A DNA stretch of 54,355 nt from Caldifarciminota bacterium. GTDB lineage: Bacteria; Hydrothermota; Hydrothermia; B15-G9. Positions 30,081-54,355 of this stretch are shown piece after piece. Every line of letters begins with the position of its first letter. Within the stretch, counting starts at the first letter, position 1. The stretch is taken from assembly GCA_015489175.1 (NCBI GenBank), contig WGAI01000001.1, positions 1 through 54,355 of the forward strand, in the 5' to 3' direction. Under the pieces are notes generated by a model. It was given only the letters and a program-made list of their open reading frames with translations, was not told where the DNA came from and did no database searches. The position numbers and the translations under genes are program-made.

Positions 30081-31337
30081 TTAAACCTCCCCTTTTTGAG
30101 GCTGTTGTTTTTTGGCCCGAATCTCCCCCGCCTTTGCTATGGCGAGTTTTGAAAAGATGGGGCCGAGAAGTTCATGCAACGCCGTTGTTCCGAGAATGAG
30201 GTTCATGACAAGCGGAGCATAGTTGCTGAATTCGGGGCGGCGCACCGTCGCAAGGGCGAGTCCAACAACAATGCCGCCCTGAGGTATCAGTCCAAGCCAG
30301 AGATGTTTGTAAACATTGGGAGCAGTATCCGATAGTTTGCCGCCGATGAACACACCAATCGCTTTGCCTACAAATCTGAGCGATACGAAGGCAAGGACAA
30401 GAAGGCTCGCTTTCACGAGCACTCCGAGCTCAATGTGCGCTCCACTCAGGACGAAGAACAGCGTGAACACCATTTCCTCGTAGTATTTTTCGATAATTTC
30501 AAACATTTTTTCGACATTCGATGACATGTTCACGACCACTGCGCCAGCTGTCATCGTGGACAGAAGCGGATCTAAATCAAGAGCATGTGCCGTCCCAAAC
30601 ACTATGAACAGAGTGCCGAGGATAATGGTGATGACCGAGCCTTCCCTGCGTATCTTCGCGGAGATCTTGACGAGGATATATCCGCCGATGGCTCCCACAG
30701 CGATGGAAGACACGATGTCGATGAGCGGTTTTATCGCAATCGTGAAGCCGTTTATGTGCTGGCCGGTTATCAATGCAGAAGCAATGCCAATGGCCACGCT
30801 GTAATTTATGATACCAAGCGCATCGTCCGAAGCCGCAACACCAAGCAATGTCGTGGTCAAAGGCCCTCTTGCGCTGTATTCGTGTATTACGGCAAGCGTA
30901 GCTGTCGGGTCGGTGGGAGATGCCATTGCGCCAATCAGCAACGCAAGCGGCAACGCCACATGCAAGAACTCTCTCGCTGTCTCAGTATGAAAGAAAAACG
31001 GCAGTATGACGACAAACCCGATTATCATTGCCAGAAATGCCATCTCTGCCTCGAAGACCGTTATGAGCACTATGGACTTTCCGAGTTTCTTTATGCGTTG
31101 TATGGCCAGACTTCCGCCTATCGAGTAGGTTATCATGGCGAGAGCGAAATCAGTCACGATGTCCGAGCTCTTCACGAAATCTATCGGAAAAATCTTTAAG
31201 ATTGAGGGACTTAGCAGCATACCGGCGAGTATGTAGCCTGACACGCGCGGCAGGTGAAATCTATTCGCCAGTTTACCGCTGTAATATCCGATTATCAGCA
31301 CAAGTCCTATGTAAAAGACCGCCCCCAATTCCATCAT
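30081..31337 (-). CDS. Cation:proton antiporter (NhaP/CPA type)
   Basis: A 418-residue sodium/proton exchanger with about twelve helices. The ion-binding helix carries GAMASPTDPTATLAVIHEY, with the TDP motif of the CPA1 branch, and another key helix has GVAASDDALGIINYSVAIG. The C-terminus ends in a basic tail, not in a TrkA-N or CBS domain. A CBS-domain gene follows after two bases; separate CBS partners of exchangers control activity by nucleotide binding in some systems, so this pair is a probable functional unit. Ion choice (Na+, K+, Li+) cannot be told. Confidence 0.92.
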   Translation of the reverse strand: MMELGAVFYIGLVLIIGYYSGKLANRFHLPRVSGYILAGMLLSPSILKIFPIDFVKSSDIVTDFALAMITYSIGGSLAIQRIKKLGKSIVLITVFEAEMAFLAMIIGFVVILPFFFHTETAREFLHVALPLALLIGAMASPTDPTATLAVIHEYSARGPLTTTLLGVAASDDALGIINYSVAIGIASALITGQHINGFTIAIKPLIDIVSSIAVGAIGGYILVKISAKIRREGSVITIILGTLFIVFGTAHALDLDPLLSTMTAGAVVVNMSSNVEKMFEIIEKYYEEMVFTLFFVLSGAHIELGVLVKASLLVLAFVSLRFVGKAIGVFIGGKLSDTAPNVYKHLWLGLIPQGGIVVGLALATVRRPEFSNYAPLVMNLILGTTALHELLGPIFSKLAIAKAGEIRAKKQQPQKGEV

Positions 31338-31355: not shown

Positions 31356-31766
31356 TTATTCCACTCTTAGCAGCGAATTAGTATATGGCCCACTCTGGAT
31401 TGTTTCAGGATTTGATGGGTCGAGATACCATGCCGTCCCATCGACGACAAATTTGTATTGATAAACGCCGGGTTTAAGCGGCACGATTATTGTCCACACG
31501 CCATCGCCGGCAACATCGTCACCGTGCGTTCCGTCGTCATACATGCGTCCGATCGACGGGTCAAACCGCCCGTTCGCCGTCCCTGCCCAGCCATTGAAAT
31601 CGCCGGCCAGATTGACATATCTCGCAGACGGAGCATAGAACTGGAACTTAATGCCGCCCTCGACTTTGTGGGGCGCAGGGAGGCGCGGCTTGACATATTT
31701 CAAAATCATACAGCCCGAAAACATCACAAGAAGCGACGCAAGGATCAATTTCTTCATGTTCTTCAT
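31356..31766 (-). CDS. Lipoprotein with CBM48-like glycogen-binding domain
   Basis: A 136-residue lipoprotein: signal MKNMKKLILASLLVMFSGC with lipobox MFSGC, followed by a single CBM48/AMPK-beta-type domain of about 95 residues (VKFQFYAPSARYVNLAGDFN, GWAGT, then PLKPGVYQYKFVVDG and DPSNPE). The ATG chosen lies after a GAGGT site; GTG at 31775 is three codons upstream. Such domains bind alpha-glucans or act as starch-recognition caps on glycogen enzymes; here they are exported. It starts just before the end of the following CBM48-barrel gene, whose stop is ten bases upstream, so both are one transcript. Confidence 0.88.
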   Translation of the reverse strand: MKNMKKLILASLLVMFSGCMILKYVKPRLPAPHKVEGGIKFQFYAPSARYVNLAGDFNGWAGTANGRFDPSIGRMYDDGTHGDDVAGDGVWTIIVPLKPGVYQYKFVVDGTAWYLDPSNPETIQSGPYTNSLLRVE

Positions 31767-31776
31767 AGCGTTCACC

Positions 31777-33510
31777 TCAGAATTTTACGACTGTCCATAT
31801 TGAAAACCGGCTGTTTGTCTCCTCAAGCGCTTGCTCGGCAGCCTGAACCACAAACGGCAGTCTGAGATAAGCACTTCTGGCAGCGGCAGATGTCAAACCG
31901 TGATCCATCAGAAACGACTCGCGGGCTCCATACTCATCGTTCAGGTCGATCGGGTTGTAACCCCATGAAAATTTGAGCGCTACGAAGGCGTTGAACGCAT
32001 AGCTGAGCTCGAAATACCTGTCAGAGAAACTCATAACATTGACAGAACTATCAGTGCCAAATCCGACAAACCGATAGTTTACATTCCTGATGTCGGCCAT
32101 AAATCCTATCCTGCCTTTTCTCGCTTCTATCTGGAAGATGGTCTGGTCAGAGATGTTTTTGCCCATGAGTTCGCTCGCATACCCGCTGTAATCAACGGAA
32201 AACCGCCAGTTCAGAAACAGTTTTTTGGATACCGAATACCGCATTGTCCTTGCAATCCTTTTTGAATAGCCAGCAAGCACATACTCAGGAATTTGCCATC
32301 TCGGAATCCGATAGTAGTCGAACAACCTCATCCATATCAGAGAATCGGAAAGTCTGGTCGGGTTTGACACGCTGACATTCGTCATCGCCAGGCCAAATGA
32401 GAATGTCCCGATCGGAGTGGAAGGCAGCTCGTAATCCATTCCCAACTCCGAAAAACTTATGGAAAGCTCGTCAAAATATCTGTTCCGCTGTCCGGCAAAA
32501 TGCAGGTTCAGGCTTTTGATGCCCGCTCCAACAAATGCAAAACGAGAGGAATGTTCAAAAGAGGAATCTGAGAATGTGCTTCCGATGCCCATCTCCCAGC
32601 TAAATCGGAAAAGGTCACCGTTCATGGCAGCGTCAAGGGCATAGAGCTCGTCAAAATTGCCCTGATGCCTATTCCTACGCCTTAAAGTAGTCGCCAGTTT
32701 CAATTTGCCCAAAAAGATTTTGTATCTTGCGGCCATCAAATCGCGCTCGCCGTGCGGTTTCCTGCCATACAACACCTGAAGGTAGTCTTTCAGGAACAGG
32801 CTCGTCGATGCAAGCACTCCCTCCTCGTCACGGCCGTAAGGGTCACAATAATTGTTGACGCAGCCAATGGATATGAGCGGGTCATCAAACTGCGTGACAA
32901 ATCGGTTGTAAAACCCCCTCAAAAAGCTAACGCCTCTGGAAAGTTTGACATCGAGCCGCTCAAGTTTGACGGGGATGTTGCCCAGTTCACCGCTCGTCGT
33001 GTTGTATCTGAACCTTGTCCACAAGTTCGAGCCGCCTATCACGCTTCCTATATCCAATTTGGCGTCATAGACCGTGTTTTGAAGCGAGTAAAGACGGCCG
33101 CCTTCGTCGTTTTTGTTGAAGTTCAGGAACCCTCGCAGGTCGCCGTGTATGAAAACATTGGGATTGCTCGGCAGGTTGCCGGAAGGCGGCGGGGTCAGCG
33201 ATATGCTTCCATCCTCCTTAATCCAGATGACCGAATTGCCGTAAGCTCCTGCCGTTGTCGGATTCATCGGGTCGGCAACATATTCCCCATCGACGACGAA
33301 TTTGTATTCGTATCTTCCCGGTGGTAGGTATATGACCCGTTTCCACACGCCCAACTCATCCTTTTTCAGAGGCAGCTGCGATGTGTTCCAGTTGTTGAAA
33401 TCCCCTGCAATGTAAACACTTTCGGCATACGGAGCGTATATCGAAAACTCAACTCCGTTTGGTGTTGGTCTGGGACCAAGCAATATCAAAGCGTAAATTA
33501 AAATGCTCAT
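31777..33510 (-). CDS. CBM48-type domain fused to predicted outer-membrane beta-barrel
   Basis: A 577-residue exported protein. A short signal peptide (MSILIYALILLG) is followed by a CBM48/AMPK-type domain (GVEFSIYAPYAESVYIAGDF to NSVIWIKEDG), the same fold as the next gene. The remaining 450 residues alternate short hydrophobic and polar strands with aromatic girdle-like ends (DYLQVLYGRKPHGER, YELSYAFNAFVALKFSWGY) and end in a final strand RFSIWTVVKF with a C-terminal Phe, typical of an outer-membrane barrel. The barrel reading is inference. ATG at 33510 is better placed after GGAGGG than the first ATG at 33516. It is followed by the CBM48 lipoprotein. Confidence 0.8.
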   Translation of the reverse strand: MSILIYALILLGPRPTPNGVEFSIYAPYAESVYIAGDFNNWNTSQLPLKKDELGVWKRVIYLPPGRYEYKFVVDGEYVADPMNPTTAGAYGNSVIWIKEDGSISLTPPPSGNLPSNPNVFIHGDLRGFLNFNKNDEGGRLYSLQNTVYDAKLDIGSVIGGSNLWTRFRYNTTSGELGNIPVKLERLDVKLSRGVSFLRGFYNRFVTQFDDPLISIGCVNNYCDPYGRDEEGVLASTSLFLKDYLQVLYGRKPHGERDLMAARYKIFLGKLKLATTLRRRNRHQGNFDELYALDAAMNGDLFRFSWEMGIGSTFSDSSFEHSSRFAFVGAGIKSLNLHFAGQRNRYFDELSISFSELGMDYELPSTPIGTFSFGLAMTNVSVSNPTRLSDSLIWMRLFDYYRIPRWQIPEYVLAGYSKRIARTMRYSVSKKLFLNWRFSVDYSGYASELMGKNISDQTIFQIEARKGRIGFMADIRNVNYRFVGFGTDSSVNVMSFSDRYFELSYAFNAFVALKFSWGYNPIDLNDEYGARESFLMDHGLTSAAARSAYLRLPFVVQAAEQALEETNSRFSIWTVVKF

Positions 33511-33749
33511 TTCCATGACCCTCCATTCGAGAACTAAGCATATTGAATTTTCAGATTTTTCTCAATAGGAGGGGAGAAAGACAAGGTCTATAGAGAAAAA
33601 AAGCAGGTGAATAAGGAAAGAACAACTTCACCCTAATTTCAATCTATTGGTAATAATTACCTAAAAAGTGACAGGACGAAAGTGATAAGCTCCTCTTTTA
33701 TGACCGTTTCTCTGGCAGTTGGTATCCACATTCTATGCCTTAGCCCCAC

Positions 33750-34802: not shown

Positions 34803-35606
34803 ATGAAGAGATTCTGGATCTACTTTGCGATAACGGTTGTTCTAATTATTGCACTTTCGCCGTTTTTCTGGATGGTTGTCACAGCGTTCAAGCCTGAGCC
34901 TGAAGCTTTGACGCTCAGGCTGTTGCCTCACCACCCAACGCTTGCCAACTTTCGCGATGTCTTGACGAGATACAATTTCCTCAGATATTTCAAAAACAGC
35001 CTCATAATCGCCACACTGGCGTCCTTCTTCTCCACGCTCTTTGCCGCTATGGCGGCGTATGCTTTTGCGAAGAAGGATTTTTACGGCAAAAATGTGCTTT
35101 TTGTGCTCTTTCTCTCCTCGATGATGGTGCCGGGACTGCTCTATGTCGTGCCGCAGTTCGTCATCGTGTTCTCGCTCGGATGGCTGAATTCTTACAAGGG
35201 CATGATAATCCCGCATCTCGCCAATGTTTTCGGGCTGTTTATGCTGGTTCAGTTCATGAAAGGGCTGCCGGACGAGCTTATCGAGGCCGCAAAGATGGAC
35301 GGTGCGTCCGAGTGGCTCATATTCTCGAAGATAATTGTGCCGCTGACGCTGCCGGCCATTGCCACGGTAATGCTTTTGAACTTCCAGTTTCACTGGAACA
35401 ACTTTTTGTGGCAGCTCCTTGTCGCACAGGACGAATCGCTTTACACCCTCCCGGTTGGGCTCGCCATGTTCAAATCGGCACATGAGGAGGCATTTGCGCT
35501 GAAGATGGCGGCTTCAACGATCTCTGTTCTCCCTATCGCCCTGCTTTTCCTGCTCGCTCAGCGCTATTTCATCGAAGGGATAACGCACGGAGCCGTCAAG
35601 GGCTGA
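34803..35606 (+). CDS. Carbohydrate ABC transporter permease, MalG type
   Basis: A 267-residue binding-protein-dependent permease with six helices, MalG/LacG-like. The cytoplasmic loop that meets the ATPase carries the EAA motif as ELIEAAKMDGASEWLIFSKI, followed by LPAIATVMLLNFQFHWNNFL; the first helix and its YAFAKKDFYGKN loop are typical. GGGAGGG lies before the ATG. The partner MalF-type permease, a solute-binding protein and an ATPase are all missing from the window, so this is an orphan or its partners are elsewhere. It ends one base before the convergent propeller gene stop. Confidence 0.92.
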   Translation: MKRFWIYFAITVVLIIALSPFFWMVVTAFKPEPEALTLRLLPHHPTLANFRDVLTRYNFLRYFKNSLIIATLASFFSTLFAAMAAYAFAKKDFYGKNVLFVLFLSSMMVPGLLYVVPQFVIVFSLGWLNSYKGMIIPHLANVFGLFMLVQFMKGLPDELIEAAKMDGASEWLIFSKIIVPLTLPAIATVMLLNFQFHWNNFLWQLLVAQDESLYTLPVGLAMFKSAHEEAFALKMAASTISVLPIALLFLLAQRYFIEGITHGAVKG

Positions 35607-53687: not shown

Positions 53688-53715
53688 TCGGTGAACAATT
53701 ACCCTACGGAGTTCA

Positions 53716-54355
53716 GTTTCCATTCCTTGTAGGTAGGATCCGTGTTACCAGCCCCTCTATTTCGCTACTATCTAATTTAAAATGTTTCCATTCCTTGTAG
53801 GTAGGATCCGTGTTATCCGGGTTCCAGTTCTGTTCGTGTGGTGCAGTTGGGTTTCCATTCCTTGTAGGTAGGATCCGTGTGAGTCAGGATCCGGTGGATC
53901 GCGAATGGAAAAGAACACTAGTTTCCATTCCTTGTAGGTAGGATCCGTGTTCACTAATCGGCGGCCATAATGGACAAGCCATTCAGGTTTCCATTCCTTG
54001 TAGGTAGGATCCGTGTTCTATCAATAACACTTTTGTGTCACTCGTTATGAATCCGTTTCCATTCCTTGTAGGTAGGATCCGTGTTATGACCGCCTCTGGA
54101 ATAGGAAAGCCTCTCCGGGGTGTTTCCATTCCTTGTAGGTAGGATCCGTGTGTGTTGCCCTCGCTTTCTCCACGCCTGTAAGCTTTCCTGGTTTCCATTC
54201 CTTGTAGGTAGGATCCGTGTGCCGTTTCCAATTTCCGTTCCTCGACCGCCAATTGATACGTTTCCATTCCTTGTAGGTAGGATCCGTGTTGAAAAAGTGG
54301 CTGATTATTGTGGCTATACTGTTGCTTTAGTTTCCATTCCTTGTAGGTAGGATCC
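53716..54355 (-). CRISPR. CRISPR array, nine full repeats and a cut tenth
   Basis: Repeats of 30 bases begin GTTTCCATTCC and end GGATCCGTGT on the plus strand; nine are complete and identical (starts 53716, 53784, 53851, 53921, 53987, 54055, 54122, 54191, 54260) and the tenth starts at 54330 and is cut by the window edge. Spacers are 36-40 bases and all different. The reverse complement ends ATGGAAAC, the classic 3' end of type I-B/III repeats that becomes the crRNA 5' tag, so the array is probably transcribed leftwards with the leader beyond the right edge. No cas gene is in the window. Confidence 0.97.

Follow-up and report, generated by a model that had tools for sequence, protein, structure and literature searches.

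Two adjacent genes for exported CBM48 proteins were found in the window, i.e., the whole 54,355-nt stretch of DNA analysed here. One encodes a lipoprotein and the other a CBM48 domain followed by a predicted outer-membrane barrel. Judging from the sequences and their gene neighbourhoods, we consider it likely that the pair forms the outer-membrane portion of a system for acquiring alpha-glucans (starch, glycogen, maltodextrin), in which CBM48 modules stand in place of SusCD. To our knowledge, most of what is known of glycan capture at the outer membrane comes from SusCD-type and maltoporin-type systems. Alpha-glucan uptake by the CBM48 pair is probably a little-described route that does without Sus machinery; no account of a CBM48-barrel cluster was found in the literature searched, in which few subscription journals were covered. 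A CBM48-based cluster of this kind would give two largely uncultured phyla and a Krumholzibacteriia genome a testable carbon source, and would add two barrel families that have neither a Pfam match nor a convincing PDB sequence relative.

The gene pair and its CBM48 domains

The features of the window that are discussed below are as follows:

31777..33516, minus strand: CBM48-barrel gene (A2 family), 579 aa (ORF, Pfam, homologues in 19 of 147 genomes)
33220..33480, minus strand: CBM48 domain of the barrel protein, residues 13-99 (Pfam matches 13-83 and 31-99), with contact equivalents W43, K72, Y79 and N94 (residue conservation)
31780..33177, minus strand: predicted outer-membrane barrel region, residues 114-579, ending in ...WTVVKF (homology across two phyla, terminal F, hydrophobic alternation)
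31767..31779, minus strand: barrel-gene stop codon and overlapping lipoprotein RBS (GAGGTGA), from sequence reading
31356..31775, minus strand: CBM48 lipoprotein gene (A3 family), 139 aa from a GTG (ORF, Pfam, RBS, AlphaFold, matches to solved CBM48s)
31710..31712, minus strand: lipobox cysteine codon, C22 of the 139-aa reading (invariant in 12/12 and 20/20 rows)
33537..33565, minus strand: promoter-like site TTGAGA-17-TATGCT, about 20 bases upstream of the barrel gene (consensus scan only)
30081..31337, minus strand: Na+/H+ exchanger, a neighbour only, outside the system (Pfam 9.3e-34)
34803..35606, plus strand: lone MalG-type ABC permease (Pfam BPD_transp_1 4.6e-19; BLASTP 2.9e-120)

The two adjacent CBM48 proteins described in the initial annotation were recovered as neighbouring ORFs that both pass the Pfam cut-offs. 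The start chosen there for the barrel gene, 33510, is the second in-frame ATG, and the true start of the lipoprotein is likely the ATG at 31766, behind GAGGTGA. This ribosome-binding site overlaps the stop codon of the barrel gene, which suggests translational coupling. The claim that both genes share one transcript is compatible with the promoter-like site upstream of the barrel gene and with the lack of a terminator-like site between the two genes, but is not proven by them; the consensus scan behind the promoter-like site found 12 sites in the region against 7.0 expected. The Na+/H+ exchanger gene starts 18 bases past the lipoprotein gene, and adjoins the pair in two further loci (L018 and L020).

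Both proteins are firmly assigned to CBM48. The 579-aa protein scores 52.4 bits for CBM_48 and 55.3 bits for AMPK1_CBM, and the 139-aa protein, most of which is spanned by its Pfam match, scores 37.2 and 33.4 bits (cut-offs 22.4 and 26.8, respectively). Among PDB sequences, AMPK-beta CBM chains are the best matches of the lipoprotein profile (2.4e-6). Structure prediction, a check proposed with the initial annotation, returned a CBM48 beta-sandwich for the lipoprotein (AlphaFold, 36-row alignment, pLDDT 83.9). The model matches CBM48 chains in Foldseek, and VIA-align gave its best fold match with a feruloyl-esterase CBM48 (6rzn; Z 13.3, rmsd 2.0, 91 aligned), and a further match with the cyclodextrin-bound CBM of AMPK beta1 (4yef; Z 11.3, rmsd 1.6, 78 aligned). 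The ligand of that feruloyl esterase is presumably of the xylan type, and since its CBM48 is the best structural match, the ligand does not follow from the fold by itself. The barrel protein's own CBM48 reached a pLDDT of about 65-80 within a poor whole-protein model (AlphaFold, 5 rows).

Contact positions were mapped by aligning the lipoprotein profile with AMPK-beta CBM chains, in which the W, K, W and N equivalents are what we take to be the glucan-contact residues. In the barrel family (35 rows, one gapped), these positions hold W in 34, K in 34, W or Y in 27 and 7, and N in 34 rows. All four are kept in 20/20 rows of the lipoprotein family; this count omits ten lipoproteins, which are covered by the 12-row A3 alignment, where the four residues are invariant as well. 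For comparison, in a rough, pattern-based control that missed some CBM48 domains, the contact lysine was K in 1/9 CBM48s fused to ParA, 0/2 of the anti-sigma type, 6/9 of amylases, 3/9 in two-CBM48 spirochaete-type proteins and 6/11 in four-CBM48 proteins.

The lipoprotein signal peptide ends in ...VMFSGC, and the lipobox cysteine is invariant in both alignments, in agreement with the earlier description of a stand-alone, exported CBM48 lipoprotein. Behind the lipid anchor, an R-[LV]-P-x-P linker is conserved, which may dock the lipoprotein on a barrel. An insertion around MYDDGTHGDDVAGDG lies within a stretch that matches NCBIfam choice_anch_X. The accompanying statement that CBM48 domains normally sit on cytoplasmic enzymes proved too narrow, as CBM48-GH57 proteins whose N-terminus is a hydrophobic leader occur commonly in this lineage.

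CBM48 domains were also seen in other settings. In ten loci (L022, L024, L027, L028, L032, L033, L038, L040, L053 and L082), the domain is C-terminal on a ParA/MinD-type ATPase with a KGGxGKT motif, and the contact lysine is mostly R. In L026, L057 and L080, it ends short membrane proteins that by eye resemble anti-sigma factors, the one in L026 adjoining a gene that by eye looks like a sigma factor. On contig C9 (L099:4973-5392), the window genome encodes another small CBM48 protein (139 aa), which has a leader and no evident lipobox.

The predicted barrels

The C-terminal region of the 579-aa protein is likely an outer-membrane barrel, as far as sequence features tell. No match to this part was found in Pfam, NCBIfam or PDB sequences, and AlphaFold, run on the whole protein with 5 rows, gave a pLDDT of 37, with residues 108-579 below 50 and merely rich in strands. 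Outer-membrane barrels typically carry a C-terminal aromatic residue and alternating hydrophobics as the BAM signal. Both were present in 32/32 intact barrel homologues, the other 3 of the 35 rows (fused, frameshifted or cut by a contig end) being set aside. The alignment-averaged hydrophobic alternation is a modest signal that exceeds that of shuffles (z 3.5), with soluble controls at -1.0 (GH57) and 1.2-1.6 (lipoprotein family), and about 19 strand-like segments were counted in the barrel region. Single-sequence alternation parts barrels from soluble controls weakly, with a mean z of 1.6 for 17 barrels, 1.3 for 12 second barrels (see below), 0.3 for 11 soluble proteins and 2.3 for six TonB receptors. 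The signal peptide of the window protein is short; the orthologue in the Eisenbacteria-type locus L021 starts with an ordinary-looking one. Thus, of the initial claim of a CBM48 fused to a barrel, the CBM48 half is confirmed, and the barrel half is supported, though not confirmed, by homology, the terminal F and the alternation.

A second predicted barrel, A4, lies directly upstream of the CBM48-barrel in many genomes. A PDB profile search with A4 gave one weak match, to a collagen adhesin, and comparison of the A2 and A4 profiles gave a probability of 26% and an E of 7e-4 (the A2 alignment held 14 of 18 barrel sequences, leaving out L103, L105, L109 and L114; the A3 alignment had 12 rows).

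Distribution and gene neighbourhood

The window genome (2.06 Mb, 77 contigs) has MAGs of candidate division WOR-3 bacteria as its closest named relatives. A search of 147 phylum genomes with the barrel part minus its CBM48 gave matches in 19, from 9 of 79 genera. These 19 are also the genomes in which the full-length lipoprotein was found (E <= 5.3e-56; next match 4e-20). Barrel and lipoprotein are adjacent in 16 of them and lie apart in G011, G016 and G024. In G122 the barrel match is weak (57/493 positions), and the assignment rests also on a 491-aa ORF that adjoins the lipoprotein. The distribution is patchy, the pair being absent from the remaining 128 genomes, including the other families of the window's order. 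The joint occurrence in the 19 genomes and the presence in a second phylum bear out the conservation of the pair, on which the initial annotation had made its proposal depend.

Other genes follow a similar distribution. A4 was found in 21/147 genomes, namely, the 19 with the pair plus G003 (80% complete) and G124 (75% complete). For a CBM48-GH57 protein that starts with a leader (Pfam GH57 5.5e-57, Glucodextran_C 1.3e-66), matches at E <= 1e-200 occur in 16/19 pair genomes, versus 3 of the 128 others. No GH57 homologue at E <= 1e-30 was found in G030 (98% complete) and G122, and G002 has a contig-edge fragment of CBM48-GH57 and one more distant GH57. In G123 and G124, a MalE gene lies three genes upstream of the second barrel. 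A lipoprotein of 430-460 aa (A5) is encoded close to the pair in several WOR-3-type genomes, with matches at E <= 1e-70 in 18/147 genomes, i.e., 17 of the 19 pair genomes plus G003. A resemblance of A5 to SusE/F, noted by eye (GDFQGW...), is not supported, as Pfam gave matches of a carboxypeptidase-regulatory type, and none to SusE/F, for the two members scanned. Two further proteins were observed in these loci. In three genomes, the two barrel genes flank a gene for a protein of 1024-1030 aa (L112:2662-5754 and the corresponding position in L113 and L114); the L112 copy has a sorting-domain tail and no Pfam match in the first 680 residues. In several genomes, the genes for the CBM48 and A5 lipoproteins are separated by that of a small membrane protein of about 124 aa, for which no family match reached the cut-off (e.g., L108:7946-8320).

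A fixed gene cluster around the pair was found in a second phylum, that of an Eisenbacteria MAG, where 17 of 20 genomes (G147, the source of locus L021, and 19 more) contain the lipoprotein. In the 17 loci compared (L021 and 16 others), the order, as far as the stretches reach, is: a large Glucodextran_C protein, a PorP/SprF-like protein, A4, the CBM48-barrel, the CBM48 lipoprotein, MalF, MalG, MalE and a Glucodextran_C protein (Pfam names taken from one such cluster). The large Glucodextran_C protein has a FlgD/CHU_C-like tail. A4 precedes the CBM48-barrel in 16/17 loci, the contig of L161 starting inside the barrel, and MalF follows the lipoprotein in 16/17, the contig of L157 stopping there; MalG was seen in 13 loci, MalE in 11 and the downstream Glucodextran_C protein in 10. 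In five of these ten, CBM48-GH57 comes next. Of the other five, the stretches compared for L158 and L163 end there, L164 has an amylo-alpha-1,6-glucosidase-type protein instead, L167 has none, and in L021 none was matched. Some reading frames of L160 are broken. An apparent natural fusion of CBM48-barrel and lipoprotein in one frame in L167 was rejected: at its junction, the final strand of the barrel and the signal of the lipoprotein are missing, and it is therefore ascribed to a deletion or an assembly error. Lastly, the same five genes, from the large protein through the lipoprotein, occur in the Krumholzibacteriia locus L029, with an alpha-amylase domain 2.7 kb further on, on the opposite strand.

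Proposed uptake route, alternatives and related systems

We infer the following scheme, including the ligand, the transport and the side of the membrane that the fused CBM48 faces. The exported CBM48-GH57 would cut alpha-glucan outside the cell, and the CBM48s of lipoprotein and barrel protein would hold chains or products at the barrel. The A2 and A4 barrels together would form the passage through the outer membrane, MalE would collect the products in the periplasm, and MalFG would import them for degradation by cytoplasmic enzymes. Both ends of an outer-membrane barrel are normally periplasmic; the fused CBM48 would therefore face the periplasm and not the surface, and may act as a periplasmic catch at the pore exit rather than as a surface hook. 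The initial annotation had proposed alpha-glucan capture or surface anchoring. Capture agrees with the Mal/GH57 neighbourhood and the conservation of the pair, whereas a surface position of the fused CBM48 is disfavoured by this topology rule. In a wider and more tentative reading, which we hold to be possible but on balance doubtful, the cluster represents a third route for starch across the outer membrane, independent of SusCD and LamB, in which two new barrel families work with a CBM48 lipoprotein and the barrel-fused CBM48 catches glucan at the pore mouth and ratchets it into the periplasm without TonB.

Acquisition is favoured over anchoring because of the fixed MalF-MalG-MalE, Glucodextran_C and CBM48-GH57 neighbourhood. 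Anchoring would mean that the CBM48s bind the cell's own alpha-glucan (capsule, storage or wall) and thereby fix the outer membrane or a surface layer, much as the SLH domains of OmpM-type porins tether to peptidoglycan. A soluble domain N-terminal to a barrel normally lies in the periplasm, where such a tether would act, and the direct downstream neighbour of the pair in the window is a Na+/H+ exchanger and no sugar enzyme; yet the cluster neighbourhood and the association with CBM48-GH57 indicate catabolism, and a tether is thus regarded as unlikely. Still less probable is a role in secretion or display, in which the barrels would help to bring large surface proteins (Glucodextran_C-like domains, type IX-like tails) to the outside or to hold them there, with the CBM48s as attachment points. 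Such a role fits the PorP/SprF-like protein and the large, FlgD/CHU_C-tailed Glucodextran_C protein upstream of the barrels in Eisenbacteria-type loci, as well as the 1024-1030-aa protein between the barrels in three genomes (with a sorting domain in the one scanned), but most WOR-3-type loci read have A4, CBM48-barrel and lipoprotein without those genes, and the ABC importer genes behind the lipoprotein in the second phylum would be needless for secretion.

It is just as improbable that the CBM48s are merely structural or have ceased to bind glucan, the fold being kept and the ligand lost or changed (e.g., to xylan). The best fold matches are indeed feruloyl-esterase CBM48s (Z 13.3), and the contact lysine is lost in many CBM48s of other settings. 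However, the four AMPK-type contacts are kept in 34/34 barrel rows and 20/20 lipoprotein rows, and the cluster enzymes belong to alpha-glucan families (GH57, GH13, GDE_C). A possible point against alpha-glucan uptake is that no growth was obtained with an isolate of the WOR-3 lineage when test substrates, starch and maltose among them, replaced yeast extract (PMC12285271).

Alpha-glucan acquisition by the pair shares elements with several known systems. The barrel of the Bacteroides Sus system is SusC. SusDEF and SusG are described as the starch-binding lipoproteins and the amylase that act on alpha-glucans (PMC9112005). The pair resembles Sus in combining an outer-membrane barrel (here predicted), a binding lipoprotein and a secreted alpha-glucan enzyme, and differs from it in its CBM48 binding domains, its MalEFG-type ABC importer and its lack of SusD. 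SusD, searched for as PF07980 only, was found in 1/147 phylum genomes and in none of the 19 pair genomes, and the 579-aa protein has no TonB-receptor or LamB match in Pfam at E <= 1; the pair was therefore classed with neither Sus nor the maltose regulon, and its earlier description as distinct from SusCD is supported. The window genome has six PF00593 (TonB-receptor) matches elsewhere, so that receptors of this type are present outside the pair.

In enterobacteria, the outer-membrane barrel LamB feeds the MalE/MalFGK route. MalA is described as the outer-membrane barrel of maltose uptake in Caulobacter (PMC6851124). Like these systems, the cluster has a barrel (here predicted) followed by a periplasmic and inner-membrane MalE/MalFG route; unlike LamB, whose Pfam family it does not match, the barrel bears a CBM48 of its own and is partnered with a CBM48 lipoprotein and a second barrel. 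The lipoprotein is like the CBM48 of AMPK-beta in fold (4yef) and in its four contact positions, and differs by the insertion around MYDDGTHGDDVAGDG and, as does the barrel protein, by being exported. In CBM9/DUF5916-type proteins, a domain of carbohydrate-binding type precedes an outer-membrane barrel. The 579-aa protein has the same predicted arrangement, but has no Pfam match to such a family at E <= 1.

In the window lineage, the parts of the system appear to be dispersed. Linked MalF, MalG and MalE genes are present in the Eisenbacteria-type loci, whereas near the window pair there is MalG only; the genes for MalE, A4 and an exported CBM48-GH57 lie in other parts of the genome. The MalG-type permease (34803-35606) shares 60% identity over 261 aa with MalG of the Eisenbacteria-type cluster, and may therefore be a remnant of the same cluster. 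Contig C6 encodes a relative of MalE with 48% identity to the cluster MalE and 51% to the G123 protein, and the genome's GH57 is 53% identical to the cluster member. A4 is found on C36, an A5 lipoprotein on C8, GH57 on C61 and MalF candidates on C40 and C44, among others. As these parts are spread over several contigs, the argument from gene clustering is borrowed from other genomes. MalE-type and similar names were given by similarity; maltose and maltodextrin binders are among the PDB relatives of the MalE-type protein, whose best PDB match has no stated substrate. On C6, the MalE-type gene is followed by genes for 327 and 257 aa (L145:4427-7437), an order that resembles the one before the barrels in G123. 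The window ends (53713-54355) in a series of ten direct repeats, each about 30 nt long and spaced 66-70 nt, which run up to the contig end and resemble a CRISPR array.
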